DNA from: an uncultured Eubacteriales bacterium
GTDB lineage: Bacteria; Bacillota_A; Clostridia; Christensenellales; Aristaeellaceae
Assembly: GCA_902803675.1 (NCBI GenBank)
Contig: CADCQZ010000358.1
Span: forward strand, 1-19,148
Direction of reading: 5' to 3'
Length of the DNA: 19,148 nt
In this document: piece by piece, positions 83 through 19,000 of the stretch
Position numbering within the stretch: position 1 is the first letter of the stretch
Layout of the letters: each line of letters begins with the position of its first letter
Translations under genes and position numbers: made by a program
Notes under the pieces: model-generated
The model's input: only the letters and a program-made list of their open reading frames with translations
Database searches by the model: none
Told to the model about the DNA's origin: nothing

Positions 83-166
83 TGGTGCGGGCGAAGAGAC
101 TCGAACTCTTACACCGTTTGGCACCAGAACCTAAATCTGGCGCGTCTGCCATTCCGCCACGCCCGC
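83..166 (-). tRNA. tRNA-Leu (anticodon TAG)
   Basis: An 84-nt class II tRNA on the minus strand. The acceptor stem is GCGGGCG/CGCCCGC, the anticodon stem CCAGA/TCTGG encloses loop TTTAGGT (anticodon TAG), and a long variable arm lies before the T-arm, as expected for leucine. CCA is encoded. The UAG anticodon reads CUN codons. Confidence 0.95.
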
Positions 167-179
167 GTACGGGACAAAG

Positions 180-255
180 TGGTGACCCATCGGAGATTCG
201 AACTCCGGACACCTTGATTAAAAGTCAAGTGCTCTGCCAACTGAGCTAATGGGTC
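180..255 (-). tRNA. tRNA-Lys (anticodon TTT)
   Basis: Complete 76-nt cloverleaf on the minus strand: acceptor GACCCAT/ATGGGTC, D-arm TAGCTCAGTTGGCAGAGC, anticodon stem CTTGA/TCAAG with loop CTTTTAA (anticodon TTT), T-loop TTCGAAT, discriminator A and encoded CCA. The gap to its neighbours is only a few bases, so the array is co-transcribed and processed. Confidence 0.96.
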
Positions 256-258
256 ATG

Positions 259-333
259 TGGCTGGGGTGGCAGGGATCGAACCTACGCATCCAGGAGTCA
301 AAGTCCCGTGCCTTACCGCTTGGCTACACCCCA
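259..333 (-). tRNA. tRNA-Gln (anticodon TTG)
   Basis: 75-nt cloverleaf on the minus strand: acceptor TGGGGTG/CACCCCA, D-arm TAGCCAAGCGGTAAGGC, anticodon stem CGGGA/TCCTG with loop CTTTGAC (anticodon TTG), T-loop TTCGATC, discriminator G and encoded CCA. The weak first pair (U1-A72) is typical of glutamine tRNAs. Confidence 0.95.
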
Positions 334-356
334 TCAATAAGGACGATGGACTGAAA

Positions 357-433
357 TGGGGTGGGTGGTGGGAGTTGAACCCACGATTTCCAGAGCCACA
401 ATCTGGCGCTCTAACCACTGAACTACACCCACC
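357..433 (-). tRNA. tRNA-His (anticodon GTG)
   Basis: Cloverleaf on the minus strand with acceptor GTGGGTG/CACCCAC, anticodon stem CCAGA/TCTGG and loop TTGTGGC (anticodon GTG), T-arm GTGGG/CCCAC, and encoded CCA. An extra G at 433 can pair with discriminator C73; this G-1 is the histidine identity element, so I include it in the gene. Confidence 0.95.
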
Positions 434-441
434 ATGGCAAT

Positions 442-518
442 TGGCGCGCCTGAAGGGATTCGAACCCCTGGCCCACGGCTTAGAAGGCCGTTGCTCTGTC
501 CAGCTGAGCTACAGGCGC
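442..518 (-). tRNA. tRNA-Arg (anticodon TCT)
   Basis: First gene of the array. 77-nt cloverleaf on the minus strand: acceptor GCGCCTG/CAGGCGC, D-arm TAGCTCAGCTGGACAGAGC, anticodon stem ACGGC/GCCGT with loop CTTCTAA (anticodon TCT, reads AGA/AGG), T-loop TTCGAAT, discriminator G and encoded CCA. Confidence 0.96.
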
Positions 519-1970: not shown

Positions 1971-2013
1971 AAACGCAGACACCGCCTTTCAAAACTCTGT
2001 CAATGACAGAAGC

Positions 2014-2022
2014 ATTATATCA
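2014..2022 (-). promoter_or_regulatory. Extended -10 promoter for the GH13 gene
   Basis: The minus strand reads TGATATAAT, a perfect -10 hexamer (2019-2014) with the upstream TG of an extended -10 element. No good -35 is seen 17 bp upstream. It lies about 45 bp before the chosen start codon. Confidence 0.65.
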
Positions 2023-2081
2023 ACTCTTCCGGACGCGCACAAGCCCGGAGAGGGCCCGTCATGGATTTTTGTTTCGTTTTC

Positions 2082-2090
2082 TGCTATAAT
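2082..2090 (+). promoter_or_regulatory. copA: Extended -10 promoter for copA
   Basis: The plus strand reads TGCTATAAT, again an extended -10 with a perfect TATAAT and no convincing -35. It lies 43 bp before the copA ATG and diverges from the GH13 promoter. Promoters with poor -35 boxes often need an activator or are repressor-controlled, but I see no clear CopY or CsoR operator. Confidence 0.6.
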
Positions 2091-2133
2091 AACGATGTCC
2101 GGCGTTTTGATCCCGGGCAAAAGGAGCATCCGT

Positions 2134-4659: not shown

Positions 4660-4726
4660 CGACGCGGAGCCCTTCCCCGGGGCCCGGGATCATACGGATT
4701 CTCAAAAGAGACAAACGAAATTTTTC

Positions 4727-4755
4727 TTGTTATTTACGGCCGAATGTGTTACTAT
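4727..4755 (+). promoter_or_regulatory. Promoter of the ferredoxin gene
   Basis: TTGTTA (4727-4732) and TACTAT (4750-4755) are separated by exactly 17 bp in an AT-rich patch, about 45 bp before the ferredoxin ATG. This makes the ferredoxin an independent unit from copA. Confidence 0.65.
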
Positions 4756-4799
4756 ATGAAAGCTTAAATAAAGCAAACAACAACTTTGGAGGTGTTACC

Positions 4800-4970
4800 A
4801 TGGCTTATCAGATCAGTGACGATTGTATCTCCTGCGGCGCTTGCGCTGCTGAATGCCCCCAGGAAGCCATCAGTGAAGGCGACGGCAAGTTCGTGATCGA
4901 TGCCGACAAGTGCATCGACTGCGGCTCTTGCGCGGACACCTGCCCGGTCGGCGCTCCCCAGCAGGCATAA
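4800..4970 (+). CDS. 2[4Fe-4S] ferredoxin, clostridial type
   Basis: A 56-residue low-potential electron carrier. Two typical motifs are present, CISCGACAAECP (Cys9, 12, 15, 19) and CIDCGSCADTCP (Cys38, 41, 44, 48), each Cys-x2-Cys-x2-Cys-x3-Cys-Pro, so both clusters should be [4Fe-4S]. Length and pattern match the classic ferredoxins that serve pyruvate:ferredoxin oxidoreductase and hydrogenase in anaerobes. A strong GGAGGTG site lies just upstream of ATG at 4800; an in-frame start further upstream would overlap copA and carries no such signal. Own promoter and terminator make it a monocistronic gene. Its acidic sequence is normal for the family. Confidence 0.96.
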   Translation: MAYQISDDCISCGACAAECPQEAISEGDGKFVIDADKCIDCGSCADTCPVGAPQQA

Positions 4971-5089: not shown

Positions 5090-5725
5090 AACAGACTGAT
5101 CGATATCCTCGAGAGAAAAATGGGCCGCTTTTACATCAGAGGCCTCATGCAGTATATCTGTTTCGGCATGCTGGGCGTGTTCATATTGGACATGCTGCCC
5201 ATCGGCTACGGCAGGGTCATGGCTTTCCTGAGCTTTGATCGGGCCATGATCCTGCGAGGCCAGATCTGGCGGCTGTTCACGTTCATTTTCCTGCCGCCCT
5301 CCAGCAGTATCATTTTCATCATATTCGCGCTGTACTTCTATTACTTCCTGGGGACCACCCTGGAGCAGCGCTGGGGAAGCCGGCGCTTCAACCTGTACTA
5401 CCTCTTCGGCATCCTGGGCGGTATCCTGGGGGGCTTCCTGTTCGGATACAACACCAACACCTACCTGAACATGTCCCTCTTCCTGGCTTTCGCCCTGCTG
5501 TATCCCGACTATCAGATCCTGCTGTTCTTTATCCTGCCGGTCAAAATGAAGTACATCGCCCTCGCGGACGCCGCCCTGATGACCTACAGCTTCATCATAG
5601 GCACCTGGCCCATGCGGGGCTGCATGATCCTGTCCCTGCTCCCGCTGTTCCTGTTTTTCGGGGACACGATGCTCGCGGAAGGAAAACGCATCGTCAGGCA
5701 GATCAGATACAAGCTCGGAAAATAA
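5087..5725 (+). CDS. Rhomboid-like membrane protein lacking the catalytic Ser/His
   Basis: A polytopic membrane protein of 212 residues with about five or six hydrophobic segments. Rhomboid-fold marks are clear: WRLFTFIFLPP after the first helix, the LEQRWGSRRF loop before the next, and LPVKMKYIAL after a later helix. The GxSG serine motif expected before ALLYPDYQILL is replaced by LNMS, and no histidine occurs in the last helices, so it should not be an active protease. It may instead bind or shepherd membrane proteins, as derlins and iRhoms do; that is inference from the family. The start is TTG at 5087, chosen because GGGAGGA at 5074-5080 lies six bases upstream; the ATG at 5072 overlaps that site. 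It is flanked by terminators on both sides. Confidence 0.8.
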   Translation: MNRLIDILERKMGRFYIRGLMQYICFGMLGVFILDMLPIGYGRVMAFLSFDRAMILRGQIWRLFTFIFLPPSSSIIFIIFALYFYYFLGTTLEQRWGSRRFNLYYLFGILGGILGGFLFGYNTNTYLNMSLFLAFALLYPDYQILLFFILPVKMKYIALADAALMTYSFIIGTWPMRGCMILSLLPLFLFFGDTMLAEGKRIVRQIRYKLGK

Positions 5726-5744
5726 TGTCCGCATCAAAGCATCC

Positions 5745-5780
5745 GCCCCGAACGCTCAAAAGCATTCGGGGCATGTTTTT
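5745..5780 (+). terminator. Terminator after the rhomboid-like gene
   Basis: A 12-bp stem with one mismatch (GCCCCGAACGCT with AGCATTCGGGGC) and loop CAAA is followed by ATGTTTTT. It lies between convergent genes; on the minus strand the hairpin lacks a T-tract, so it mainly serves the plus-strand gene. Confidence 0.85.
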
Positions 5781-5819
5781 ATAGGGACCGATATATTGCA
5801 CACGGCGGCGCGCCGGATA

Positions 5820-7619
5820 TTATTTTCGCGGCGCGAAGGTGAATGTGACCTCCATGGTCTCGATATGCCCCATGCACTCCAGATCCCTGTTCAACGGGGT
5901 AGCGGAGATCCCCGTCAGGTCCCCGTAAAGCACCCGGGCGTCGGCCTTCGTGACCTTTTTCATATCGACCCACTCGTTGAACAGATTGGTTCGGGTGCAT
6001 TTGCCGTCGTCGGAACAGGTATAGTTCCTGCCCTTGAGCTTGACCTTTTCCCCGTTGATCCTCACCTCGGTCACGTTGACACACCAGCCCGGGAAAAGCT
6101 GCTCGGCATTGGACAGCCCCACAGCGCAGAAAGCCGTATTCTGCGCGAACCCCTGCTGAGTGCCGGTGAAATCCAGCGCCACGGTGTAGACCCCCTCGCC
6201 GGTGATCTCCACATCCGTGGGAACGATGCCCGGCGTGATGGCGTCCGGCGTGTAGGTGTCCCCCACACTGTAACTGAGCGCCCAGCCGCCCTCACTGAAC
6301 ATGATCCACGCCACGCAGGTATCATCCGTCACGGGGATGGCGTCCGCACGCAGGGATACTGGGGCCGCGGCGATCGCTTCCTCCACGGCCCGGCGGCCGG
6401 AAGCAGCGATCTCAGCGCGATCCCTGCCCTCCTCGGAAGCGGCGTTCCTGCCAAGGTAGATCGCCGCCATCTCCTTATCGGTGATCTTAAGATCCCGCCG
6501 GATGAAGAACCCGCTGCAGTCCCACAGGCAGGAAGTAAAGTTCAGAGCGTCACAGCAGTCCAGGAACACCTTGTGATACAGCGCGGCATTGGGCTTCATC
6601 ACCCCGTCCTCGCCGGGCAGCGCGCCGTATTCGCCGATGACCACGCCATAGCCCTGAGCCGTGAAGCGGCTCATCTGGCTGAGGGTCTTGTACATGGCGT
6701 CAAGATCCGACGCCGATCCCCACAGCGTGGCCCTCGACGCGGAGGCGGCGCCGCAGTAGCTCCAGGGATCATAGTAGTGCACTGAGACCATCAGCCTGTT
6801 TACGGCCGTATCCGCCGGCATTTTGAAACGGCTGTCAAAGGTAGCCTTGATGTTGGTGCCGTATCCTGCGATGAGCAGGAAGCGCTCCGCGTTGTTGCCG
6901 CCGCTTTCCCGCACCGTATCCACGAAGGCCTGGTTGACCTCGTTGGTCAGAGCGTAGCGCTTATCGTCAGAAAGATAGGTCTTCACAGAGTCCCGGCAGT
7001 AGCACGGGGAATTCTCATCGAACCTCGCCCCCAGCTCCTCGTTGGCGCTCTCGAAGATCACATAGTCGGAATAATCCCGGAAGTACCCGGCGATCTGACG
7101 CCACATGCCCTTGTACGCTTCCATGGCGAAAGCGGCAGTCTGATCGTCCTCCGAGCCGAACATGCCCCACCAGCCGCCGTCCCAGTGGTCGTTGATGATG
7201 ACGTACATGCCGGCGTTCCGGGCGTAATCCACGATCTCGCGGACCCGGGCCAGGTAACTTTCATCCAGGGTACAGTCCTTCATCTCAAAGGGCATCGGGC
7301 TGGCGTTGGTCATCCATGCCACGGGAATACGGACCGTATCGAAACCCGCGGCTTTCATAGCCGTGAGCATCGCTTGGGTGGTCACCGGCTGGCCCCAGGA
7401 TACCTCGTACACTTTGGGATCCCCGCTGTAGCGGCCGCGTGTGGCGTCACAGGCCTCCATGGTGTTTCCCAGATTGATGCCGTTGCCCATGAGGCAGGTG
7501 GCCTCCATCGCAGTGAGGGCATGCCGAATCGTGCCGTCATCCCCGGAAGCGCTCTCACCCCATGCCGCGCCCGGGATCAGCATCGAGAGGATCAAAACAG
7601 CGCAAAGCACTCGTATCAT
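5820..7619 (-). CDS. Secreted GH5 endoglucanase with a C-terminal shared module
   Basis: A 599-residue extracellular enzyme that should cut beta-1,4-type glucans by the retaining GH5 mechanism. A signal peptide spans about 1-21 (hydrophobic core to GAAWG). The GH5 barrel covers about 35-395: GINLGNTMEA at 47-56, SWGQPVTT, VRIPVAW, DHWDGGWWG, acid/base Glu194 in ESANE, HYYDPW at 281-286, and nucleophile Glu330 in VIGEYGAL. The pattern is close to subfamily 4, which includes endoglucanases, lichenases and xyloglucanases. After a linker, residues 436-597 form a module homologous to the repeats of the secreted protein at 12081-14078, here with six cysteines (435, 498, 513, 535, 541, 582). AAGAGGG precedes the ATG at a good distance. 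It is the last gene of the locus, beyond a hairpin, so it probably depends on read-through. Confidence 0.9.
   Translation of the reverse strand: MIRVLCAVLILSMLIPGAAWGESASGDDGTIRHALTAMEATCLMGNGINLGNTMEACDATRGRYSGDPKVYEVSWGQPVTTQAMLTAMKAAGFDTVRIPVAWMTNASPMPFEMKDCTLDESYLARVREIVDYARNAGMYVIINDHWDGGWWGMFGSEDDQTAAFAMEAYKGMWRQIAGYFRDYSDYVIFESANEELGARFDENSPCYCRDSVKTYLSDDKRYALTNEVNQAFVDTVRESGGNNAERFLLIAGYGTNIKATFDSRFKMPADTAVNRLMVSVHYYDPWSYCGAASASRATLWGSASDLDAMYKTLSQMSRFTAQGYGVVIGEYGALPGEDGVMKPNAALYHKVFLDCCDALNFTSCLWDCSGFFIRRDLKITDKEMAAIYLGRNAASEEGRDRAEIAASGRRAVEEAIAAAPVSLRADAIPVTDDTCVAWIMFSEGGWALSYSVGDTYTPDAITPGIVPTDVEITGEGVYTVALDFTGTQQGFAQNTAFCAVGLSNAEQLFPGWCVNVTEVRINGEKVKLKGRNYTCSDDGKCTRTNLFNEWVDMKKVTKADARVLYGDLTGISATPLNRDLECMGHIETMEVTFTFAPRK
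5829..6314 (-). other. Shared module in the GH5 C-terminus
   Basis: Codes for residues 436-597 of the GH5 enzyme. It lines up with the modules of the 665-residue protein: ITGEGVYTVALDF against ITGAGTYTVGLEF, NVTEVRINGE against NVTEVKVNGE, and YTCSDDGKCTRTNLFNEWV against YTSSDDGITTRENLYNEWV. The best match is to the third module. I do not recognise it as a named carbohydrate-binding family. Confidence 0.8.
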
Positions 7620-7648
7620 ACCTTTATCCCTCTTGATCGAAGATCAGA

Positions 7649-7687
7649 TAAAAGGACTGCCGTACGGTCCTTTCCGTACGGCAGTCC
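7649..7687 (-). terminator. Intercistronic hairpin/terminator after the solute-binding protein gene
   Basis: A perfect 14-bp inverted repeat (7654-7667 and 7674-7687, arm GGACTGCCGTACGG) with a 6-nt loop begins 9 bases after the binding-protein stop. On the minus strand it is followed by TTTTATC. It is a good intrinsic terminator, yet only about 30 bp remain before the GH5 start, too little for a separate promoter, so partial read-through or mRNA end protection is likely. Confidence 0.85.
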
Positions 7688-7696
7688 CGGTCGACT

Positions 7697-9460
7697 TCAG
7701 TTCTGCTGCGTCATGGCCACCAGTTCCTGCTGGGCCTCCCAGCACCGGGCGGCTTCCGCCTCGCACCAGGCCGCGTACTTCTCATAGCCCTTGGCCTTGC
7801 ATTCGTTGATCATGGTGGTCAGATGAAAGTTGAACTCACCGTCGTTCTTGGCGTAGATGCAGCGCCAGCTGTAGGTCTTCACCGCGTCCATGATGCTCTT
7901 GGCCTGGGCCTTGAGCTCCGGATCCATCGCGCCGGCGGAATAAGTCCCCCTGGACAGCATCAGCTTGTAGGGATGCTTCTCCAGGTATTCCTGCAGGGTA
8001 TCGCAGCCGCTCCAGGCGCACCAGTCCTTCTGGATGTCGGTCATGTCCCCGTTCATGACACTGACCCAGCCCTCTTTGTCCAGAGTCTCGGTCTTTTTGC
8101 TGTCCGGGTTCTGCTGGCTGGCAGTGAGGGTCGTATTGTTGATCTGCAGGGCGCCATCGTTGTAGGTGCCGCTCTGGGGGTATTCCTTCCCGGTGCGGGG
8201 CCCAACGAGCACGGTGCCGGACATGTCATACTTGGGATCCTTGTTGGTCTTCAGGCCCAGATCGGTAAAGCAGGCACCGCCTTCCTCGTCATAGTCCCAG
8301 GTCAGTCCCTTGGGGCCGTACCACATGGTGAGACTGCCTTCGGGCGTGGCCAGGTAGTCGATGATGGCCAGGCACAGTTCGGGATACTCCGCGTCCGCGC
8401 CGATGGTCCACACCCGGTTGCCGCCGGCGGTGGACAGCCCGTAGCAGATGGGCGTGGCTTCATCGGGCACCATGGTGCCCATATACCGGCCCGCGGCCAT
8501 ATGATCGGCAGTGTTGTAGGTGGAAGAGCCGGCAAAATTGAAGATGGACCAGAAGGTGCCGCCCGCCTTGACCTTTTCACTCATCTTGTCGAAGGTATTG
8601 CTGGAGGAATCGGGATCCAGCAGTCCCTCCCGGTACAGGGCGTTGAAGAAGCGGAGGCATTCGATGTACATCCCGTCCGGCTCCAGGCAGCCCTGGAACT
8701 CACCGGTCTCGGTGCTGATGAGGCCCTGCTCGAACTCATCCCAGCCGTAGTAAGCCGTGGCCAGGGATTTGACGTACATCACCATGTTTCCATCCCAGTC
8801 CGGCCAGAGGGAGACGGCGTAGGTGGGATTGCCGTTCTCGTCCGCGGGGCAGATCTCCTTCATCTTTTTGAACAGGTCGATCATGCCGTTCAGATCCTTC
8901 ACGGCAGGATAGCCCAGTTCCTTGTACAGGTCCCATCTTAAGTCCCAGGTGTAGAAGAAGTTCTCATGGCTGCCGGCGTTCAGGGCCACATTGTGCCCGA
9001 AGCCGTGTATCTTCCCGTCACCGCTCTTGGCCCTGTTGGCGTTCAGGGCCATCTGGTAATTCTCCCAGATATAGGGCGCGTAGTCCTGCACCAGGCCGTC
9101 TTCTTCCCAGTCCAGGAGCAGCCCCTGTTTGACCGCTTCCTGGTACTGGTCGCCGTCCGCGCCCCAGACCACGATATCGCCCAGGTTCTTGCTCTCCATC
9201 CGGGTGGCGTAGGTACCGTCGGAATCGGGGATGATGTTGATGCGTACATTGAACATGTCCAGCAGCAGATCGGCGCTCCAGTGCCCCTGGATGCCGCTGT
9301 AATTGGCCAGCTGGCTGTACACGTTGATGGTGATGGGGTCGCCGTCATAGACACCGATATCGGCCAGTTTGGCGTAGATATCGCTCTCATCCGCGGCAAA
9401 CGCGCCCGCGAGCCCGGAGAGGAGGAGAAGCACACAGAGACAGGCGATGCACTTTTTCAT
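7697..9460 (-). CDS. Extracellular solute-binding protein of a carbohydrate ABC transporter
   Basis: A 587-residue binding protein of the LplA-like type, longer than typical 400-450-residue sugar binding proteins, as is usual for the partners of LplB/YtcP-type permeases. An N-terminal signal peptide ends near residue 22 (SGLAGAFA, then ADES). The mature part has the mixed alpha/beta pattern of the family, rich in Trp and Tyr suited to stacking on sugar rings, with a typical LAIIDYLATPEGSLTMWYG hinge-region segment. No lipobox cysteine follows the hydrophobic stretch; the cysteines at 4, 8 and 10 lie too early. AAAAGGAGG is eight bases before the ATG. It follows the two permease genes and precedes the GH5 gene. 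Ligands are inferred from context to be beta-gluco-oligosaccharides. Confidence 0.9.
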   Translation of the reverse strand: MKKCIACLCVLLLLSGLAGAFAADESDIYAKLADIGVYDGDPITINVYSQLANYSGIQGHWSADLLLDMFNVRINIIPDSDGTYATRMESKNLGDIVVWGADGDQYQEAVKQGLLLDWEEDGLVQDYAPYIWENYQMALNANRAKSGDGKIHGFGHNVALNAGSHENFFYTWDLRWDLYKELGYPAVKDLNGMIDLFKKMKEICPADENGNPTYAVSLWPDWDGNMVMYVKSLATAYYGWDEFEQGLISTETGEFQGCLEPDGMYIECLRFFNALYREGLLDPDSSSNTFDKMSEKVKAGGTFWSIFNFAGSSTYNTADHMAAGRYMGTMVPDEATPICYGLSTAGGNRVWTIGADAEYPELCLAIIDYLATPEGSLTMWYGPKGLTWDYDEEGGACFTDLGLKTNKDPKYDMSGTVLVGPRTGKEYPQSGTYNDGALQINNTTLTASQQNPDSKKTETLDKEGWVSVMNGDMTDIQKDWCAWSGCDTLQEYLEKHPYKLMLSRGTYSAGAMDPELKAQAKSIMDAVKTYSWRCIYAKNDGEFNFHLTTMINECKAKGYEKYAAWCEAEAARCWEAQQELVAMTQQN

Positions 9461-9534
9461 GGAACGAGCCTCCTTTTGGCGAAAGTCGAACGGGAAACGA
9501 AAAGATCAAACGCAAATGATCCGCGATGCCATGA

Positions 9535-10491
9535 TCAGCCCTTGACGGCTCCCAGCATGATGCCCTTGACGAAATACCGCTGCATGAAGGGATACACCAG
9601 AAGGATCGGGATGATGCTGACCATGGATACCGTGTACTGGATCACACGCTGGTTCAGCATGTTTTGAGCAGCCTGCTCGCTGATGGCGCCGCCCTGGCTC
9701 ATCATGGCTCCCAGATTGCTGGAGCTCGTCAGATACACATACAGCCGATGCTGCAGGGTGTACAGATCAGGCCGGTTGTTCATCAGCAGCAGGGAGTCCT
9801 GGAAGGAGTTCCAGTTGCCCACGGCGCCGAAGATGGCGATGGTAGCCAGGATGGGAACACTCAGGGGCAGGATGATGCGCATCCAGACTTTCAGGGTGGA
9901 CGCGCCGTCGATCACGGCGCTCTCCTCCAGGGATGAGGGGATGGACTCGATATAGGTCTTCACCAGGATGATGTTGTAGGGTGCCACCAGACCGGGGATG
10001 ATGTAGGCGAGGAAATTGTCCGTCAGGCCCAGCATGAGCATGTTCATGTACCAGGGCACCAGGCCGGCGTTGAAATACATGGTGATCACGAGGAAGCGGT
10101 ACCAGAATGAGCGCTTCCACATTTTCTGTTTGGTGACCAGATACCCCGCCCAGGCCGAGGTGATCACCATCAGCGCGGTGCCGACGACCGTGCGGGTCAC
10201 GGTGACGATCACGCTGCTGCCCAGGTCCTGCACGTTTTGAAGCGCCACATAGTTGCTGATCTGCACGCCGAACACCGCGGTGCCTTCGGCGTTCTTGACC
10301 TGCGGGAAGAAATTGATCAGCCCGCTGGTCACCAGATCATTATCCGAAATGGTGTTGATCAGCAGATAATAGAACGGGAATACACAGATCAGCGTGAACA
10401 GGCTGAAGAAAATGACCAGCGCCGTGTCGAACACACGGTCCCCGGCGCTCCGTCGGATATGAAGGGGAGCCGCAGTCTCTTTTTTCGTCAT
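9535..10491 (-). CDS. Carbohydrate ABC transporter permease, LplC/YtcP-like
   Basis: One half of the membrane channel for oligosaccharide import, 318 residues. It has six predicted membrane helices, starting with FDTALVIFFSLFTLICVFPF. The cytoplasmic EAA loop that docks on the ATPase is clear at about 189-211 (EESAVIDGASTLKVWMRIIL), and the C-terminus ends in MQRYFVKGIMLGAVKG, characteristic of this permease type. GGGAGGGGG before its ATG overlaps the stop codon of the upstream permease gene (16-bp gap), so the two are translationally coupled. No ATP-binding subunit is encoded in the locus; this transporter class normally borrows a shared MsmK-like ATPase. Confidence 0.93.
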   Translation of the reverse strand: MTKKETAAPLHIRRSAGDRVFDTALVIFFSLFTLICVFPFYYLLINTISDNDLVTSGLINFFPQVKNAEGTAVFGVQISNYVALQNVQDLGSSVIVTVTRTVVGTALMVITSAWAGYLVTKQKMWKRSFWYRFLVITMYFNAGLVPWYMNMLMLGLTDNFLAYIIPGLVAPYNIILVKTYIESIPSSLEESAVIDGASTLKVWMRIILPLSVPILATIAIFGAVGNWNSFQDSLLLMNNRPDLYTLQHRLYVYLTSSSNLGAMMSQGGAISEQAAQNMLNQRVIQYTVSMVSIIPILLVYPFMQRYFVKGIMLGAVKG

Positions 10492-10507
10492 AGTCCCGAC
10501 CCCCTCC

Positions 10508-11995
10508 CTATATGATGCTGTCCCCGCGGACGGCTTTGGAAATGCCGTTGGCGGTGAACAGAAGAGCGATGCCCACCAGGGATTTGGAGATGCCCACCAC
10601 GGTGCTCAGCGGGATCTGATCGTTCCCGATGCCGATGTTGTACACATACAGATCCAGCACCTCGATCATGTCCTTGTTCATAGGATTGGAGAACACCAGG
10701 TACTGCTCCATACCGTTGCTCAGGATGCCGCCGATGCTCATCAGCAGCATGACCATATAGGTGGGGATCAGCCCGGGGATGGTGATGTGCCAGATGCAGC
10801 GGAAGCGGTTGGCGCCGTCCACCCTGGCAGCCTCATACAATTGCTGATCGATGCCCGCAATGCCGGCGATATACACGATGGCGCTCCAGCCCACGCCCTT
10901 CCAGGTGCCCCACAGGAGCATCTTCAGCCAGGTGTGGTCCGGGATCTGCAGATAGTTGGTATTGGCGCCCGTCACGTGCATCACATTGGTCAGGAAGCTG
11001 TTGATAAAGCCGTTGGTGGAGAAGATGCAGATGGCGATAGCGTACACCAGCACCCAGGAGATGAAATTGGGGATGGTGGTGAAGGTCTGCACGAAGCGCT
11101 GGAACCGCGTGCTGCGCACCTCCGCCAGCAGGACCGCGAAGGCGATGGGCAGCCAGGAGGTGGCGATGCCCAGGCCGCTCATGATCAGCGTGTTCCTCAG
11201 GACACGCACCAGTTCCTTGGCGTTGGCCGGATCCAGGAACAGGAACCGGAACCACTTGAATCCCACGAAGTTCTCCGCCCCTATACTGCCTCCGGGCGTA
11301 TAGTCGAAGAAGGCGAAGCGCCAGCCCCAGATGGGCAGATAACTGAAAACGAAAGCAAGCAGGATCACCGGAAGCATCATCAGGAACAGCCGGTACTTTT
11401 CGTCCATCTCCATCCTGGCCGCCTTATCCGTTTCCTTCTCGGAGGTCAAAAACGCGATCAGGGCCGTTATCAGGAGCAGCCCCGCGAAGACGCAGAACAC
11501 ATAGAAACCGCCGGGAAGGATCACCCGGATGGTATCCAGCTTGCCCGCTTCCTCACCGTGGGACAGCATATTGCCGTATGCTTTCCTGATCAGCAGCAGC
11601 CCTCCGGCCATGACGGGCGAGCCGACCAAGGGCAGGATAAGGCCTCGGCGGCACATTTTCCTGTTGCCCAGGCTCATGCACGCGCCCACACCGCAGGCGA
11701 TCACACCGGCCATGAGCAGGCAGCAGGCGATCATGAGCAGGGTGATATCCGATGTGCGGATCCACTGGGACCGCAGGATGCGGCCCATGCTGTTGGTGAT
11801 GGTATCGAAGCTGACGCCTGTGGTGAACAGGCTGGTGGATTCATTGATCTTTTCACTGATCCTGCCGGGATTGACCGGCGGAAAGAAAACAGCCAGGCCG
11901 GCGATCAGCGCCGCGGATCGGAAGATCCACAGCGGCAGCCGCCGGCCAAGGGACGGCCCCCCCGCATGGATCGTCTTGTGAACGCTTGCTTCCAC
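10508..11995 (-). CDS. Carbohydrate ABC transporter permease, LplB-like, with extra N-terminal membrane domain
   Basis: Second permease half, 495 residues against the usual 290-330. The core from about residue 200 onward is standard: LFLMMLPVILLAFVFSYLP as the first helix, WGWRFAFFDY, and the EAA loop YEAARVDGANRFRCIWHITI at about 387-406. Residues 1-199 are additional. They carry about four hydrophobic segments (22-39, 83-107, 117-136, 157-183) and a polar stretch of about 45 residues between the first two, which probably lies outside the cell. The start is GTG at 11995, six bases after AGGAGGAG. The function of the extension is unknown. Confidence 0.9.
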   Translation of the reverse strand: MEASVHKTIHAGGPSLGRRLPLWIFRSAALIAGLAVFFPPVNPGRISEKINESTSLFTTGVSFDTITNSMGRILRSQWIRTSDITLLMIACCLLMAGVIACGVGACMSLGNRKMCRRGLILPLVGSPVMAGGLLLIRKAYGNMLSHGEEAGKLDTIRVILPGGFYVFCVFAGLLLITALIAFLTSEKETDKAARMEMDEKYRLFLMMLPVILLAFVFSYLPIWGWRFAFFDYTPGGSIGAENFVGFKWFRFLFLDPANAKELVRVLRNTLIMSGLGIATSWLPIAFAVLLAEVRSTRFQRFVQTFTTIPNFISWVLVYAIAICIFSTNGFINSFLTNVMHVTGANTNYLQIPDHTWLKMLLWGTWKGVGWSAIVYIAGIAGIDQQLYEAARVDGANRFRCIWHITIPGLIPTYMVMLLMSIGGILSNGMEQYLVFSNPMNKDMIEVLDLYVYNIGIGNDQIPLSTVVGISKSLVGIALLFTANGISKAVRGDSII

Positions 11996-12040
11996 GTCCG
12001 TCTCCTCCTAAAACGCACGATAGATCAAAGAACAGTCCTG

Positions 12041-12070
12041 CGGGGAGCGCCCGAAAAAGGGCGCTCCCCG
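12041..12070 (-). other. Strong intercistronic hairpin without a U-tract
   Basis: A perfect 12-bp stem (12041-12052 with 12059-12070, arm CGGGGAGCGCCC) and a 6-nt loop begin 10 bases after the stop of the modular protein gene. The T-run lies on the wrong side of the stem for a minus-strand terminator. It is more likely an mRNA stabiliser or processing boundary between the modular-protein message and the permease message. Confidence 0.75.
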
Positions 12071-12080
12071 AAAAAACGTA

Positions 12081-14078
12081 TTACCAGCCGCTGACGGTGA
12101 AGGTGATGGTGATGGTCTCGTTGGGGCCGGGCACTGTGTAGCCGAAGTCGGCACCGGTGCCGTAGACGTTGATCACGTCGATGCGGGCGTAAGCGCCCTC
12201 TTCGATGTTCACATTGGTGTATTCCTGGGTCGCGGCACCGCCGATCTTGATCTTGACGCCGTCGATGGTCAGGAAGCCGTCGGCGATCAGCTTGGAGGGG
12301 ATATCCGTGGACACGAACAGCAGGTTGAATTCCTCCGTCGCGCCGAAGCCCCTCTCACCTGTGGTGAGGCTGACAGTGTACTCGCCGTCGCCGGTGATCT
12401 CCACGTCCACGAAGCTGCCGCCCAGATCATCGGAACCGTCTTCGGTGTCCGGATTGTCCCAGCCGGTCAGCCGGTAGAAGTAAGGATGCTCCGCGTCGTT
12501 CATGCCGTAACTGTCATTCCAGGCATTGCGGAACACGTAGGTATCCTTGCCCTGAACACCGATATAAGCATGGAAGCCGGCTTCCTTCAGGGCATTGGCT
12601 TCTTCCTCGGTCATGGGTGCGTCATCACCCTTGGCGATGGGCTTGCCGTAGATGAGATCGAAAGTCACTTCCACGTTCTTGACGGCGGCGAAAGCTTCCT
12701 TATCCACGATGATGGGGGACGCGTCCGTCAGATCGCCGTCCGCACGGCGGGCATCAACAGGCAGCTCGGTCACCCATTCGTTGTACAGATTCTCCCGGGT
12801 GGTGATGCCGTCATCGGAGGAGGTATACCCCTTGCCGAGCGCGATGGCCTCCCCGTTGACCTTCACTTCGGTAACGTTGATGAAATAGCCGTTGAAGGTC
12901 TTCTCGCCGTTGACGATGCCCACGGCGGAGAAAGCCAGGCCCTGGGCCTCTTCCGCGAACTCCAGGCCCACGGTGTAAGTGCCGGCACCGGTGATCTCGG
13001 CGTTGACGGCGGTTACACCTTCAGGCGCGTCACCGCCCCAGTACTGGTACGCCCAGTTGGCGTCCGCATACATGAGGTAAGCCGTGTCGGTGACGGGCAC
13101 CAGGGTGAAGTCGATCTGGACGGACTTCACGGCACCGAACAGCTCCTTGTCCACGATGATGGGCTTGGCCCCTTCCACTGTGCCGTCGAAAGAATGCGCG
13201 TCGGTGGGCAGATCGCTGACCCATTCATTGTACACGTTCATCCGGGTGGTGACGCCGTCATCGGAGGAGGTGTAGCCCTTCTCGAAGGCGATCTCTTCGC
13301 CGTTCACACGGATGGCGTTGATCTTGATCGAAGCGCCGGGATAGGTCTTTTCACCGTTCACGATGCCCAGGGCGGCAAAGGCCAGGCCCTGCGCTTCTTC
13401 CGCGAACTCAAGGCCCACGGTGTAATCGCCAAAGCCGTCGATCACGGCGTTCACGGCCGTAACGCCTTCAGGCGCGTCGCCGCTCCAGTACTGGTAAGCC
13501 CAGTTGGCATCGGCATACATGATGTAGGCGGTGTCCACGCCGAACTGATGCAGCGTGAAGTCCACTTCCACGCTCTTCACGGCAGCGAAGAGCTCCTTGT
13601 CCACGATGACGGGCTTGGCGTCGTCCGTCTTCCCGTCGAAGGATCGGGCATCGGTGGGCACTTCGGTCACCCACTCGTTATAGATGTTCATGCGGGTCAC
13701 GATCCCGTCATCCGAGGAGGTATAGCCCTTCTCAAAGGCGATCTCTTCCCCGTTCACGCGGATAGCGCTGATCTCGATGGTATAACCGGGCAGAGCCAGT
13801 TCACCGTCCGTGATCCCCACGGCTGTAAAGGCCAGGCCCTGGGCTTCTTCGGCAAACTCCAGGCCCACGGTGTAGGTGCCCGCGCCGGTCACGGCGGCGT
13901 TCTTCGCGGTCACGCCCTCCGGGGCTTCACCGCCCCAGTACTGGTAAGCCCAGGCACTGTCGGCGTACATCAGATACGCTTCAGGGCCGGCGGGAGCTTC
14001 TTCCGCCACGGCGGGGACGATGCCCGTCAGGCTCACGATCAGAGCCAGGCAGATAAGAACAGCCAGTGTCTTCTTCAT
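12081..14078 (-). CDS. Secreted protein of three near-identical modules plus one divergent copy
   Basis: A 665-residue exported protein with a signal peptide (1-25, ending VPAVA). The mature part is almost wholly modules: 34-176, 184-326 and 333-475 are close copies with a period of 149-150 residues, and 504-663 is a divergent fourth. Each copy begins with an aromatic patch (WAYQYW), then an ITGAGTYTVGLEF strand, AEEAQGLAF, a VNGE turn, YTSSDDG and YNEWV, ending in an IIVDKE..AVK..VDF strand. No catalytic motif, dockerin, LPXTG, SLH domain or lipobox is seen, and the mature protein has no cysteine. The same module ends the GH5 enzyme of this locus. A multivalent glycan-binding role is inferred. 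AAGGAGG lies seven to ten bases before the ATG. It follows lacI by 77 bp with no clear promoter between them. Confidence 0.9.
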   Translation of the reverse strand: MKKTLAVLICLALIVSLTGIVPAVAEEAPAGPEAYLMYADSAWAYQYWGGEAPEGVTAKNAAVTGAGTYTVGLEFAEEAQGLAFTAVGITDGELALPGYTIEISAIRVNGEEIAFEKGYTSSDDGIVTRMNIYNEWVTEVPTDARSFDGKTDDAKPVIVDKELFAAVKSVEVDFTLHQFGVDTAYIMYADANWAYQYWSGDAPEGVTAVNAVIDGFGDYTVGLEFAEEAQGLAFAALGIVNGEKTYPGASIKINAIRVNGEEIAFEKGYTSSDDGVTTRMNVYNEWVSDLPTDAHSFDGTVEGAKPIIVDKELFGAVKSVQIDFTLVPVTDTAYLMYADANWAYQYWGGDAPEGVTAVNAEITGAGTYTVGLEFAEEAQGLAFSAVGIVNGEKTFNGYFINVTEVKVNGEAIALGKGYTSSDDGITTRENLYNEWVTELPVDARRADGDLTDASPIIVDKEAFAAVKNVEVTFDLIYGKPIAKGDDAPMTEEEANALKEAGFHAYIGVQGKDTYVFRNAWNDSYGMNDAEHPYFYRLTGWDNPDTEDGSDDLGGSFVDVEITGDGEYTVSLTTGERGFGATEEFNLLFVSTDIPSKLIADGFLTIDGVKIKIGGAATQEYTNVNIEEGAYARIDVINVYGTGADFGYTVPGPNETITITFTVSGW
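12090..12569 (-). repeat. Divergent fourth module copy
   Basis: Codes for residues 504-663. It keeps the outline of the other copies, AYIGVQGKDTYVFRNAW at the aromatic patch, VEITGDGEYTVSL in the second strand and a TIDGVKIKIGG turn, but lacks the AEEAQGLAF and YTSSDDG motifs and carries an insertion rich in Asp, Asn and Gly. Confidence 0.6.
12654..13979 (-). repeat. Three tandem module repeats of about 450 bp
   Basis: Module I is encoded at 13979-13551, module II at 13529-13101 and module III at 13082-12654. They are easily aligned at DNA level as well as protein level (for example the stretches coding for EFAEEAQGLAF and IVDKELF), which implies fairly recent duplication or ongoing gene conversion. 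Modules I and II are closest in the MNxYNEWV region; module III differs there. Confidence 0.9.
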
Positions 14079-14155
14079 GGTTCTTCCTCCTTAATAAATG
14101 TTGCATTGGAAACACATCTATCGCTCCCCCCCGTCAGGGCGGGTAAGCTTCCGCG

Positions 14156-15160
14156 TCACGTCTCCGGGGCGGGTCCCAGAGTCTCCCCCGGGATCAGCAC
14201 ACCTGCAACGGTGATCTTCCGCCTCTCATGGGCATCCGGATCCTCGATGGCTTCCTGCAGGAGCTGAGCCGCTTCCTGCGCCACTCTGGCCGCGTCCTGG
14301 CGGTAGGTGGTCAGACGGGGATGGAGCATCTGGGTCATGCGGATGCCGTCATATCCCACCAGGCTCACGTCCCGGGGCACCCTCAGACCCATGTTCTCCA
14401 GTGCCTCCAGCGCCCCCAGGCAGCTGAAATCATCCGGGCAGAGGATGCAGCCGGGCTTTTCGCTCCCGGCCATCAGGGCCCTGACCTCAGCCGCGCAGAT
14501 GTCAGGCGCGTGGAAGCGGCCCTGTCGCACATATTCTGAAGGCACTTTCAGGCCCAGCTCCGCGCAGGCCTTATAGAACCCGGCGGCCCGCTCACGGGTC
14601 ACCATGCTGTCATCTCCCTGGATGAAGGCCACCCGCCGGTGTCCCTTCTCCCAGACCGCCCGGACGATCTGTTCGACGCTCCCCCGGTTGTCGCACATGA
14701 CGCAGTCACATCCGTCGTACGCGTGATCGATCACCACCGTGGGCATGCTTCCGGAGGCCAGGCGCATCACGTCGGGAGAATGGAAATCCGCCTGGACCAC
14801 CACTACGCCGTCCAGATTGCGCCGGCGGGCCCGGTCGTGGTAGTTCCCTTCCTCGCTGTTGGGGAAACGCCGGATGAACGTCAGGTCGTACCCCTTGTTC
14901 TCCGCCGCGAAACGGATCTCGTTGAGCAGCAGGCTGAAATACTCATGGTCCATCCTGTCCTCGTACAGGATGCCGATATTGTAGGACCGGCTGGTCTTGA
15001 GGGTGCGGGCCGCGGCATTCGGATAATAGCCCATCTCCTTGGCGGTCCTCAGGATAAAGGCGGTATTCTTTTTGCCCGGATCCGCCAGCCCGTTCAGCGC
15101 ACGGGAGACCGTGGCGGCGGATACCCCGCAGGCCTGAGCGATATCTTTCAGCTTTACCAA
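14156..15160 (-). CDS. LacI-family transcriptional regulator
   Basis: A 334-residue sugar-responsive DNA-binding protein. Numbered from the chosen TTG, the helix-turn-helix is at 4-23 (KDIAQACGVSAATVSRALNG), the hinge helix NAAARTLK at 48-55 with the Leu54 that normally wedges into the central CG of the operator, and a periplasmic-binding-protein-like sensor domain follows (SYNIGILYED, DGVVVV, GHRRVAFI, CILCPDDF, VSLVGYDG, LTTYRQD). I chose TTG at 15160 because it gives the usual family N-terminus and a G-rich site lies upstream. The ATG at 15187 has no site, and still longer versions start upstream of the predicted transcript start. It is the first gene of the glucan locus and should control it and itself. 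Confidence 0.9.
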   Translation of the reverse strand: MVKLKDIAQACGVSAATVSRALNGLADPGKKNTAFILRTAKEMGYYPNAAARTLKTSRSYNIGILYEDRMDHEYFSLLLNEIRFAAENKGYDLTFIRRFPNSEEGNYHDRARRRNLDGVVVVQADFHSPDVMRLASGSMPTVVIDHAYDGCDCVMCDNRGSVEQIVRAVWEKGHRRVAFIQGDDSMVTRERAAGFYKACAELGLKVPSEYVRQGRFHAPDICAAEVRALMAGSEKPGCILCPDDFSCLGALEALENMGLRVPRDVSLVGYDGIRMTQMLHPRLTTYRQDAARVAQEAAQLLQEAIEDPDAHERRKITVAGVLIPGETLGPAPET

Positions 15161-15207
15161 TCCCGTTCCCCCCCGCCGACCAAGCATCGAAGACCGAATA
15201 CAGCAAA

Positions 15208-15223
15208 TTGCAATCGTTTGCAA
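15208..15223 (-). promoter_or_regulatory. LacI/CcpA-type operator over the lacI start point
   Basis: On the minus strand TTGCAAACGATTGCAA, a near-palindrome with a central CG. It fits the general cre consensus WTGNAANCGNWNNCAW at every fixed position. It begins two bases downstream of the -10 box, so a bound repressor would cover the transcription start. Confidence 0.8.
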
Positions 15224-15225
15224 TC

Positions 15226-15254
15226 ATTATAGAATGCTCCGGAGACTTTGTCAA
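15226..15254 (-). promoter_or_regulatory. Consensus sigma-A promoter of the glucan locus
   Basis: Minus strand: perfect TTGACA (15254-15249), exactly 17 bp, perfect TATAAT (15231-15226). The predicted start near 15219 lies within the operator. It is the only good promoter I see ahead of the six-gene minus-strand series, so it probably drives all of them. Confidence 0.9.
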
Positions 15255-15348
15255 CATGTATATGTTATCCGGCTGCATTTTTATTGTTTAAGCCATAAAA
15301 ACGAGTTTATTCACGCTTTTCCCGTCCCGAACGGGCCGCTTTTTAAAA

Positions 15349-15364
15349 TTGCAAACGTTTAAAT
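15349..15364. promoter_or_regulatory. Second LacI/CcpA-type operator
   Basis: TTGCAAACGTTTAAAT matches the same consensus with one mismatch and has the core AAACGTTT. Its centre is 141 bp from the first operator, a spacing compatible with DNA looping; it could equally be a degenerate or CcpA site. Confidence 0.55.
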
Positions 15365-15424
15365 AATTACATACCGGAAACGCACGGGCAGCCGCTTTGC
15401 ATTGCATGAAGGCCCCGCCGCGGC

Positions 15425-15451
15425 AAAAAAAAGACCCGGGACAGGCCCGGG
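15425..15451 (-). terminator. Terminator after the 21-residue-repeat protein gene
   Basis: On the minus strand a CCCGGG-CCTGT-CCCGGG hairpin (15451-15435) is followed by TC and a run of eight T (15432-15425). It isolates the repeat-protein gene from the lacI promoter. Confidence 0.85.
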
Positions 15452-15523
15452 AAGATCCCTCATACCGCGGCCGCCCGCTCCGGCTGCCTCGGAAATAGGC
15501 TCAAAAGGATCCGGTGATGCTTA

Positions 15524-15916
15524 TCAAAACCCCGTGTCATCCCCGTCCGGACAGCCGGCGTCGTCGTCATCGTCGAACAGGCCGGAAATGCCCTTGGGAC
15601 CGGTACCGTAAGTGGTGCTGCCAAAGAACACGTTGGGAGTGCTGAATCCCGCCGGACTGCCCCCGGCGTCGTAATGATCCATCCCGCCGAACAGGCCCTC
15701 TGTGGAAAAGCCCGCGGGGCTCCCGTCGGCGTTGTAATGATCCATCCCGCCGAACAGGCCTTCCATGGAAAAGCCCGCGGGGCTCCCGTCGGCGTTGTAA
15801 TGATCCATCCCGCCGAACAGACCGGGCAGGCTGTAGCCGACGCGCTTGCCGTTCTCATCATAATGGTCGACACCGCCGAAAATACCGGGCAGGCTGGTCA
15901 CCCGTTTGCGTCCCAT
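15524..15916 (-). CDS. Small protein of 21-residue tandem repeats
   Basis: A 130-residue protein that I do not recognise as a named family. After MGRKRVT come four clear 21-residue units of the pattern S-x-x-G-(I/L)-F-G-G-x-D-H-Y-(D/N)-x-x-G-x-x-x-G-(F/Y), then a degraded fifth (STPNVFFGSTTYGTGPKG), and an acidic tail with five consecutive Asp. The regular Gly, the DHY triplet and the DxxG turns suggest short beta-hairpins stacked into a small beta structure. There is no signal peptide or membrane segment. The start is ATG at 15916, eight bases after GGGAGG; a longer in-frame start at 15982 has no such site. It is transcribed alone, divergent from the methyltransferase-like gene, with its own terminator. 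Confidence 0.8.
   Translation of the reverse strand: MGRKRVTSLPGIFGGVDHYDENGKRVGYSLPGLFGGMDHYNADGSPAGFSMEGLFGGMDHYNADGSPAGFSTEGLFGGMDHYDAGGSPAGFSTPNVFFGSTTYGTGPKGISGLFDDDDDAGCPDGDDTGF
15614..15895 (-). repeat. 63-bp in-frame tandem repeat
   Basis: Units of 63 bp encode the 21-residue repeats. The central copies are nearly identical in DNA: the segment beginning GATCCATCCCGCCGAACAG on the plus strand recurs at 15676, 15739 and 15802, exactly 63 bases apart. The outer copies have diverged. This points to recent expansion by slippage or unequal exchange. Confidence 0.9.
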
Positions 15917-15984
15917 ATTCCTTACCTCCCGAAGCAAAAGCGCCCCGCCGGGGAAAACCGCCCGGAAGACGTCAAAAGTCATGC

Positions 15985-16798: not shown

Positions 16799-19000
16799 AT
16801 GGTTCAAAACATCGTCAGAACGCGCACTTCGAGGCAGGGCCGGATCAGGCCCCTTCTCCTCGCGGCGGTCTGTTTGCTTTTTCTCCTCCTTTTGGTCCCG
16901 GCAGCGGGGCCTGAAGCGAAGGCCGAAGAAACTTTCCCCTATGACGCGATCCACGACGCGCTGACCGGTACCCTCAATGAGGAAGCCGGTGAATTCAGTG
17001 CCGCCGCTTTCACGATCCTCGGAAGCGAGGGATCGGGCGACCAGACCACATTGTACCTGAAAGCATCGGCCCTGCGCTACGGCTTTATGGGTGGGTACTG
17101 CGTCCCGATCTCCGGCTGGAAGGGCCCCTGCACGGCCGTGGTGATGGATCTGAGAGGGCTGTGGCTGCTCACGGATCTGACCACCATCGAATCCTACAGC
17201 GATATCGAAGGCATATTCTCTCCCGAGGCCGCCAAAGCCTTTTTTGAGGCTGACGGTGACTGGGAAGAGATCGACCGCCTGATCAGCGACGAAGCTGAGG
17301 AGACCCTCAGGCGCATGGGCCGGAGCGAAAAGATCGGCACTTTCACTGACGCGTCGGGGGAACTGCCGAACATCGTCACCATCGCCTCCAACCTGCTGGG
17401 GAACCTGAGCGACTGGCCGCTGGGCTGCACCTACCTGGAGAAAGCAGAACCCGATGGGCGCATGATCTACGAAAAGGCCTGGGAAGCCGACAGCGAAGAC
17501 AACCTCGTCACTCTCCGGCCGGACGGAAGCAGCTATGACTGGGGCGGGACCACCGGAACGCTCACCTTTACGAAGACCCGGAAGGATACCGGGCTGAACA
17601 TCTTTACCATCACAGCCCGCGCGACGGTCACGGAACTGGTGATCACCCTGTCGGACGAGGGCGGACTGATCCGTTACATCCTGCCTGTAGTCTGGGGTGA
17701 GGACGGGGCTCCGCATTACGAGCAGCCCGTGGTCCGCAGGGAGAACAGCTGCAGGGCCTCCGCGGACCTGATCGAGCGGATGGTGCAGTATCTGCCGGGA
17801 GAACGGCAGGACCTGACCACGGATATCGGCAGGACCAACGCCGAGACGATCTTCAAAGGATGGACCATGGGCTACTATGAGAGCCAGAATTACGGCGTCC
17901 AGGCCTACGCGGTCTATTACCGGATCCAGAAAAAGGCCCTGACTCTCAGATACGTCACCCTGAGCGCCGCCACGGGCGTGGCGGAGCAGAAGGACAGCCT
18001 CCCGATCCCATTGAGCGCCTCCTTCATGGAAAGCCTGGACACCGCCGGGCCTGACGGCCTTTTCACCTTTTCCAAGTCGGGGCTGACCTTCCTGACGGAA
18101 GACGCCGTGGACAGGAACATCCTGCCCCTGGAGGGCCGTGTGATCCAGATCGATCCCCAGCCCGAAAGCCTGATCATCCTGACGCAGACGGATCTGAGCT
18201 GCCGGCTGTGGGTCGCCGAAAAAGCCGGCGGAAGCTGGTTTTCCGTGCGCTTCACGCTGCAGCTGCCCGTCGATACCTCCCTGGACCTTGTGCAGAGAGC
18301 TTTCGGCCAGGTCTGGCTGAACTGGAACGCCCTGTACAGCCAGTGTGTATTTGAAAGGAGCGCTGACGGCACCTGGTCCCTGACGCGGGTCAGTTTGTCC
18401 GGCGCGTATTACACCGTATCCTGGACCGGCATCCGGGGCACCACCAGGACCGGGGAGGAGATCCGGGCTTTCGGCACCTTCCCCTCAAGAGACCTGTTCG
18501 AATGTGACTTGCTCACGCTGCCCTCCACCGCCGCCGACGCGGCCGCGCTCCTTGACACCACGGGGATCGCCGCCGTGAACAATCCCGACAGCGAAGACAG
18601 GCTGAACCTGCGTGAGAGCGCCGACAGGGCCTCTGTTTCCCTGGGTTCCTTCAGGAACGGGACCCCGGTCACGGTGCTGAGCGACGAGGGCGAATGGTGC
18701 CTGGTCAGGATCGGCATCGATCCCGGCCTCTCCGGCTGGATGATGAAGCAGTATCTGGCATTCGGAGATGAAGCGCCGGATATTTCTCAGAGCGATCCCG
18801 GGCTGAAACTGTCGGAGGACTATCTGGGCGCTTTCGCGGCCGGCCCCGACGGGAAAGAAAAAGCCCTGACCGGTCAGGAGATCATCCTGGGCACCGGAGA
18901 GGACTCAAACGGCGGGCGTCTCTTCATCCTGCTGGCAGACGACGGGCATGTGCTGTACGCGCCGGAGATCTGGTATGTTTCGGGAGCGGACGCCCTCTGA
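16799..19000 (+). CDS. Large secreted protein with a C-terminal SH3b domain
   Basis: A 733-residue exported protein of unknown overall function. A strong hydrophobic segment (about 18-37) ends in GPEAKA then EE, a likely signal-peptidase site, though uncleaved anchoring is possible. Residues about 45-585 are beta-rich, with no motif that I recognise. Residues about 588-655 look like a bacterial SH3 domain: RLNLRESAD, a GSFRNGTPVTVL turn, WCLVRI and GWMMKQYL. SH3b domains usually bind cell wall peptides, so a cell-envelope location fits. A final 75-residue part follows (IILGTGEDSNGGRLFILLADDG). AAGGAGGT lies immediately upstream of ATG. Alternatives such as a hydrolase inhibitor or lipoprotein-like sensor cannot be tested by eye. 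Confidence 0.85.
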   Translation: MVQNIVRTRTSRQGRIRPLLLAAVCLLFLLLLVPAAGPEAKAEETFPYDAIHDALTGTLNEEAGEFSAAAFTILGSEGSGDQTTLYLKASALRYGFMGGYCVPISGWKGPCTAVVMDLRGLWLLTDLTTIESYSDIEGIFSPEAAKAFFEADGDWEEIDRLISDEAEETLRRMGRSEKIGTFTDASGELPNIVTIASNLLGNLSDWPLGCTYLEKAEPDGRMIYEKAWEADSEDNLVTLRPDGSSYDWGGTTGTLTFTKTRKDTGLNIFTITARATVTELVITLSDEGGLIRYILPVVWGEDGAPHYEQPVVRRENSCRASADLIERMVQYLPGERQDLTTDIGRTNAETIFKGWTMGYYESQNYGVQAYAVYYRIQKKALTLRYVTLSAATGVAEQKDSLPIPLSASFMESLDTAGPDGLFTFSKSGLTFLTEDAVDRNILPLEGRVIQIDPQPESLIILTQTDLSCRLWVAEKAGGSWFSVRFTLQLPVDTSLDLVQRAFGQVWLNWNALYSQCVFERSADGTWSLTRVSLSGAYYTVSWTGIRGTTRTGEEIRAFGTFPSRDLFECDLLTLPSTAADAAALLDTTGIAAVNNPDSEDRLNLRESADRASVSLGSFRNGTPVTVLSDEGEWCLVRIGIDPGLSGWMMKQYLAFGDEAPDISQSDPGLKLSEDYLGAFAAGPDGKEKALTGQEIILGTGEDSNGGRLFILLADDGHVLYAPEIWYVSGADAL

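Follow-up and report, generated by a model that had tools for sequence, protein, structure and literature searches.

Surface glycan-binding proteins of Bacteroides, of which an N-terminal lipoprotein signal is a defining feature, include SusE and SusF, which are built from several β-sandwich domains in a row. For the Roseburia/E. rectale group, the available sections of PMC5320581 report no close Sus homologues and ascribe polymer binding to carbohydrate-binding modules (CBMs) of enzymes, and in the locus of Blautia producta the CBMs also sit on the enzyme, with four CBM4 on a GH16 protein (PMC10318527, in the portion available). The accessible parts of the papers on Athe_2052-2054 of Anaerocellum bescii and on the R. 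cellulolyticum system mention no all-module protein (PMC12710961; PMC8576529). Here we describe a locus in a 19,148-nucleotide stretch of DNA from an uncultured Eubacteriales bacterium (contig CADCQZ010000358.1; the whole stretch is referred to as the window), in which a 665-residue protein composed of repeated modules is encoded beside an ATP-binding cassette (ABC) importer of the CUT1 type. We place at roughly 0.6 the probability that this protein serves the importer by binding glycans outside the cell, without catalytic activity of its own, a reading that rests on the partners, architecture and anchors of the protein and its relatives.

The gene occupies positions 12081-14078, as an earlier model-made annotation of the same letters (the original prediction) had it, and lies on the minus strand. 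Its product begins with MKKTLAVLICLALIVSLTGIVPAVAEE, has an SPI-like signal, which by eye extends to about residue 25, and lacks both a lipobox (by reading) and a C-terminal anchor. Three modules follow on the same strand: m1 (residues 34-176; 13551-13979) and m2 (residues 184-326; 13101-13529), both delimited by sequence comparison and an AlphaFold2 model, and m3 (residues 333-478; 12645-13082), which of the three is nearest to the tail of the glycoside hydrolase family 5 (GH5) enzyme encoded at the other end of the locus. They are 70-74% identical to one another over 143-144 residues, and in the DNA they appear as three 300-nt copies with a mutual likeness of 68-78%; the three modules of about 143 residues that had been proposed are thus present, although "near-identical" was slightly too strong a term for them. 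The remainder of the protein, m4 (about residues 485-665; 12084-12626, minus strand), matches the GH5 tail at E 2e-5 and m1 and m3 at E 0.002-0.03 in BLASTP searches of a five-sequence database, whose E values are for that reason only indicative, and aligns with the module in a profile-profile comparison (hhalign) with a probability of 63% and P 7e-5 over 82 collinear columns. Because these scores are weak, m4, originally called a divergent fourth module, is divergent indeed but a remote relative of separate subfamily rather than a true fourth copy.

The GH5 enzyme (599 aa; 5820-7619, minus strand; Pfam Cellulase, 151 bits) is separated from the module gene by 4.46 kb, close to the 4.5 kb first noted. 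Its residues 428-599 (5823-6338, minus strand) constitute a further copy of the module according to sequence comparison, structural model and tree: they are 35-45% identical to m1-m3 over 157-162 residues, with E values of 4e-30 to 1e-38 in the five-sequence BLASTP search. The claim that the tail of the enzyme and the repeats are the same module is therefore borne out, and the peptide pairs quoted for it (e.g., NVTEVRINGE and NVTEVKVNGE) are correct. The enzyme is classed as GH5_4-like from its closest solved relatives, which by sequence and fold comparison are GH5_4 enzymes (lichenase and xyloglucanases), and from its conserved family-5 glutamates, NE at 193-194 and E330 being invariant in 35 aligned sequences. 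In the module tree, all 30 GH5-tail modules form a single clade (support 0.997), so the module was probably acquired only once by GH5. The idea that each position in the all-module protein is a separate old lineage holds only in part: m3 falls mostly in one clade (44 of 59; support 0.57), and m1 and m2 intermix.

No model of Pfam or NCBIfam, catalytic families included, reached its cut-off with the module protein or with m4. A set of 36 diverse modules gave no convincing match when searched singly against Pfam, and the profile made from them had no credible match in the PDB sequences, the best being at E 0.65. In these three collections there is thus no confident match to a known CBM or adhesin, as would be expected if the module is not a named CBM. 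The Shr-like HID domain (PF07550) was considered as its identity and not used: the window's module protein scores 18.6 bits, below the gathering score of 22.3, and only 5 of the 36 modules match weakly (best E 0.0078) over about 35 residues; the domain also appears in the precomputed annotation of a few homologues. The modules are predicted with high confidence to be small β sandwiches of about 143 residues. Structure prediction, which had been proposed as a check, arranges strands (E) and helices (H) identically along m1 and the GH5 tail, as E-E-E-E-H-E-E-E-H-E, and models the tail as a separate β-rich domain on a carbohydrate-active enzyme. A literature search, which covered few subscription papers, turned up no publication recognised as naming the module, and the parts available of PMC7480376, PMC4954948 and PMC13003330 contain nothing on it. 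The best explanation is that m1-m3 and the GH5 module belong to one unnamed, CBM-like family, of which m4 would be a distant version.

The family appears to be large and its architecture is constant, with three (or four) modules plus m4. There are at least 882 homologues of the module protein at E <= 1e-3 among 7,999 scored and, with a broader profile, at least 5,097 at E <= 1e-5 among 7,997; the details that follow refer to the best 120 of each search, the totals being lower bounds. Three module matches were found in 113 of the 120 best homologues of the module protein, four in 6 and two in 1, while the best 120 homologues of the GH5 tail had one match in 117, two in 1 and three in 2. The broader profile newly listed 69 distant homologues, with three modules in 64, four in 5 and m4 in all; 37 of the 69 have a C-terminal membrane segment. 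Where the source gave names to listed homologues, these were always "hypothetical protein". Two very distant relatives of 950-953 aa still have three modules, an m4-like region and a hydrophobic C-terminal end. One of the two, L138, still adjoins both permeases and the solute-binding protein (SBP), and beside the other, L139, there is a partial permease-1 homologue only, followed by the end of the contig. Two distant proteins of about 600 aa (L140:3124-4914 and L142:2654-4534) have two divergent modules and share a common C-terminal region; the stretch examined around them showed no gene of such an importer.

A scan of species genomes yielded 355 relatives; from these, 77 loci were retained, which according to their titles come nearly all from metagenome-assembled Clostridia, mostly of rumen or gut; the titles include Christensenellaceae, Christensenella, Hungateiclostridiaceae, Clostridiaceae and Ruminiclostridium, as well as one Anaerolineaceae. 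Within the order of one relative, the module is present in 10 of 297 sampled genomes, that relative counted. In the 12 genomes studied as a whole, it occurs in an all-module protein in every case and in a GH5-type frame in 10, on the same contig in 8; beyond these, only a distant protein of G006, with two modules, carries it. One genome contains the complete locus, in the gene order of the window, on a 3.26-Mb contig, which makes it unlikely that the arrangement is an assembly artefact. The module gene is split into two or three frames in L019:8989-10999 and L024:9076-11143, by assembly error or decay.

On the minus strand of the window, a LacI-family regulator, the module protein, permease 1, permease 2, the SBP and the GH5 enzyme follow one another in this order. 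Permease 1 (495 aa, with an N-terminal extension; 10508-11995) and permease 2 (318 aa; 9535-10491) both match BPD_transp_1 above cut-off; the SBP (587 aa, without lipobox; 7697-9460) stays below the cut-offs of SBP_bac_8 and SBP_bac_1. When only loci with enough sequence on the relevant side are counted, permease 1 lies downstream of the module gene in 71 of 73 loci and permease 2 in 68 of 70, and the SBP is there in all 65; LacI is present in 34 of 63 and GH5 downstream in 35 of 58. The GH5 enzyme bears the module in 27 of these 35 loci and lacks it in 8. Of these 8, the enzyme of L026 contains Big_2 domains, and each of the remaining seven shares 59-67% identity with that enzyme. The constant partner of the module protein is thus the CUT1-type ABC importer, and GH5, which we had considered as the defining partner, is optional. 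The original prediction derived glycan binding from the presence of a glucanase and a sugar transporter; binding of glycans fits both partners, but it is the importer and not the glucanase that is constant.

These associations suggest the following sequence of events. Release of LacI would switch on one operon, and the secreted GH5_4-like enzyme, kept on the polymer by its own module, would cleave a polysaccharide whose backbone is a β-1,4-glucan; xyloglucan or a β-glucan related to it is the most likely one. The three-plus-one protein could then retain chains or fragments near the cell and so raise the local supply for the SBP, which would deliver them to the two permeases.

Among the 77 loci with a complete C-terminus, the module protein is anchored in 8 and without an anchor in 69, the window included. 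Three of the 8 anchors are LPxTG-like and the others consist of a membrane segment with a Lys tail; in L072 there are two anchored proteins, one of each type. In all 8 anchored loci the SBP has a lipobox (lipobox and signal calls were made by pattern and reading). Of the other 60 SBPs, that of the window among them, 52 lack the pattern and 8 match a loose version, and these 8 were judged false because an AxA-type site comes after the Cys. A further 20 SBPs from G001, G002, G006 and G008, 16 of them readable, gave one clear lipobox (L136), 6 loose matches with an AxA-type site and 9 without any; in the outgroup (G005 and G009), all 9 readable SBPs out of 10 have a lipobox by reading. The lack of an SBP lipobox thus seems to be lineage-wide. 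An outer membrane was rejected as the cause of the missing anchors, since Omp85 was found in none of the 12 genomes, and so was a loss of lipoprotein processing, since Lgt and LspA are each present in all 12; sortase is present in 9. Taken together, the relatives of the window seem to have a single membrane and SBPs without a lipid anchor. The Lgt family (PF01790) is expanded, with 4-7 matches, in G001-G004, G006-G008, G011 and G012, and 1-2 in G005, G009 and G010. A complete three-plus-one protein with a membrane anchor is also found in Spirochaeta dissipatitropha (P0285); spirochaetes have an outer membrane, so this homologue would face the periplasm, which hints at a role in holding oligosaccharides.

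The module protein could act in a few other ways. First, the modules might bind protein, either one another (the original prediction offered a self-pairing module that tethers the enzyme) or the SBP, and the all-module protein would then be a scaffold which holds the GH5 enzyme and the importer together. We regard this as unlikely, even though it is the alternative that survives best. It would explain why, in each genome, hardly any protein other than two from a single operon has the module, while many CBMs occur on varied enzymes, and, as the SBP and the module protein of the window both lack a visible anchor, a partner could hold them. However, the all-module protein is still present in the 23 of 58 loci that lack GH5 and in the 8 of 35 whose GH5 has no module, so that tethering of GH5 is unlikely to be its main job. 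A GH5 enzyme can moreover carry two modules (P0140), and the repeats contain many conserved aromatic residues (W10, Y36, F42, F51, Y86, W103 and F141 are near-invariant), as would be expected of a sugar site, although residues of the core may explain them.

Second, the three-plus-one protein could be a cell-surface adhesin or stalk which fixes the cell to plant fibre, with its proximity to the importer reflecting co-regulation only. The LPxTG-like and membrane anchors of relatives, a FIVAR domain that two distant relatives have, one of them with a score over the cut-off, and the pilins and adhesins among the weak structural matches of the modules would all agree with such a function. It seems a somewhat poorer candidate than the scaffold, however, given that the protein is unanchored in the window and in most of the 77 loci and that a near-constant link to one importer is unexpected for a general adhesin. 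Finally, an enzymatic or envelope-binding role (e.g., on peptidoglycan), unrelated to the imported glycan, is very improbable: a metal site or an active site could lie in the polar stretch YTSSDDG..TR.N..NEWV, which is strongly conserved, and the weak Shr-like HID matches would suit binding to the envelope, but a β sandwich of about 143 residues that matches no enzyme family and is joined, in GH5, to a complete catalytic domain argues otherwise.

Xyloglucanases are among the GH5_4 relatives of the enzyme, which speaks for xyloglucan as the imported glycan, as does the SBP. The window's SBP alone found no PDB match at E up to 0.01; a profile of 16 SBPs found a single one, even with E values up to 10, namely 9PMY, a cluster G protein, to which the similarity is remote (E 2e-5; 26.5 bits). 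This structure is Athe_2052, which binds a xyloglucan heptasaccharide with a Kd of 14 nM, as stated in the available part of PMC12710961. A GH31 enzyme adjoins the locus in L039, L052, L072 and L077 and scores 1078-1261 bits with an α-xylosidase model whose cut-off is 606; a fifth, in L044, is below that cut-off, and L050 has a truncated relative. The GH31 enzymes of L052 and L039 have YicI as their nearest PDB relative, and all four above the cut-off contain FKTDFGE, which we take to be a typical α-xylosidase motif. A GH95 enzyme and a two-component system are also encoded in L072 and L077, and a GH94 enzyme in L052. Across whole genomes, the α-xylosidase model passes in 6 of 12, with one or two stops in two of these frames. 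Against xyloglucan weighs its failure in the other six (G001-G004, G008 and G011); the window itself holds no α-xylosidase. We consider xyloglucan the likely substrate of the family overall, but for the lineage of the window only a possible one, with mixed-linkage glucan as an alternative.

The proposed regulation by LacI agrees with signals at the head of the gene row. A LacI-type operator palindrome, TTGCAATCGTTTGCAA, lies at 15208-15223 with zero mismatches, directly after a promoter-like site (TTGACA-17-TATAAT, 12 of 12 positions; 15226-15254, minus strand) found by consensus scan; a match with at most two mismatches occurred in 9 of 200 shuffled windows. Near the start of lacI, operator-like sites with at most two mismatches are present in 23 of 34 relatives, the background being 0.019 per 420 nt, as estimated from 20 of 78 sequences with true sites still included. 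The regulator itself (14156-15223, minus strand; Pfam and NCBIfam) is listed with a start at 15223 that overlaps the operator, and the TTG at 15160, which follows a purine-rich stretch, is probably its true start. The consensus scan found no other minus-strand promoter from 5500 to 15600, so that the gene row is likely to be one transcript. Between the SBP and GH5 genes there is a strong terminator-like hairpin of 15 pairs with a T-rich tail (7653-7688, minus strand), one of 12 such sites found by the scan where 6.1 were expected, which may reduce expression of GH5 relative to the importer.

The rest of the window holds six clustered tRNA genes (Gly, Leu, Lys, Gln, His and Arg; 2-518, minus strand), an α-amylase-family (GH13-type) protein outside the operon (642-1982, minus strand) and, at 1801-4970 on the plus strand, what are presumably, judging by their motifs, a P-type ATPase for heavy metals and a small protein resembling ferredoxin. 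Upstream of lacI, a 152-aa open reading frame (15524-15982, minus strand) contains tandem repeats, each some 20 residues long and centred on GLFGGMDHYNADGSPAGFS; at the threshold used, the relatives' loci showed no homologue of it. It is followed by a secreted-looking protein of 733 aa with a C-terminal bacterial SH3 domain (16799-19000, plus strand).

Several known systems resemble parts of this locus. At the level of the module, galactose-binding-like sandwiches (CBM32, discoidin and F5/8C) are among the best single-domain structural matches of m2 and m3, over about 90-105 residues at 3.1-3.6 Å, and CBM46, CBM65, CBM79 and CBM80 are likewise binding domains on GH5_4 enzymes, although none of these four matched the module in the PDB profile search. 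At the level of the importer, Athe_2052-2054 and the R. cellulolyticum xyloglucan system also combine a large SBP with two permeases, and the GH31 α-xylosidase candidates beside some relatives and the two-component system of L072 and L077 recall xyloglucan importers. As a whole, with its linked glycoside hydrolase, ABC importer and LacI-type regulator, this is a Gram-positive polysaccharide utilization locus, as are those of Roseburia/E. rectale and the mixed-linkage glucan locus of Blautia producta. In those loci CBMs are borne by enzymes; in the present one the importer is accompanied by a distinct protein made of modules only, which is new within the literature covered.

The closest functional likeness is to SusE, SusF and SGBP-B of Bacteroides (e.g., of the B. 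ovatus xyloglucan locus; PMC12710961 and PMC10318527, in the sections available), which are also non-catalytic, exported proteins with serial β-sandwich domains, whose genes adjoin those of an importer and an endo-glucanase from the pathway in which they act. In contrast to them, the window's protein has no lipid signal and works beside an ABC importer instead of SusC/SusD, neither of which is among its scanned neighbours (the ABC importer, GH5 and LacI); no sequence relation to SusE/F or SGBP-B was found. It is therefore best read, by analogy, as a protein that acts like SusE/F or SGBP-B without being a member of either group. More tentatively, the modules may constitute a large unnamed glycan-binding family whose three-plus-one proteins are dedicated, importer-coupled receptors, present in Clostridia as well as in one spirochaete or more, and a SusE/F-type counterpart arisen for ABC import, which in the window's lineage would have lost both anchors together and become a soluble extracellular relay.

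In summary, this is a module family with a strict architecture and a near-constant link to one importer type; most of its carriers are Clostridia from rumen and gut, and at least one is a spirochaete with a species name. If its modules bind β-glucan, they would add a CBM family, open the capture of glycans by transporter-coupled proteins in Clostridia to direct tests and fill the place for which no counterpart of the Sus glycan-binding proteins of Bacteroides was found in the Roseburia/E. rectale group of Gram-positive gut bacteria.
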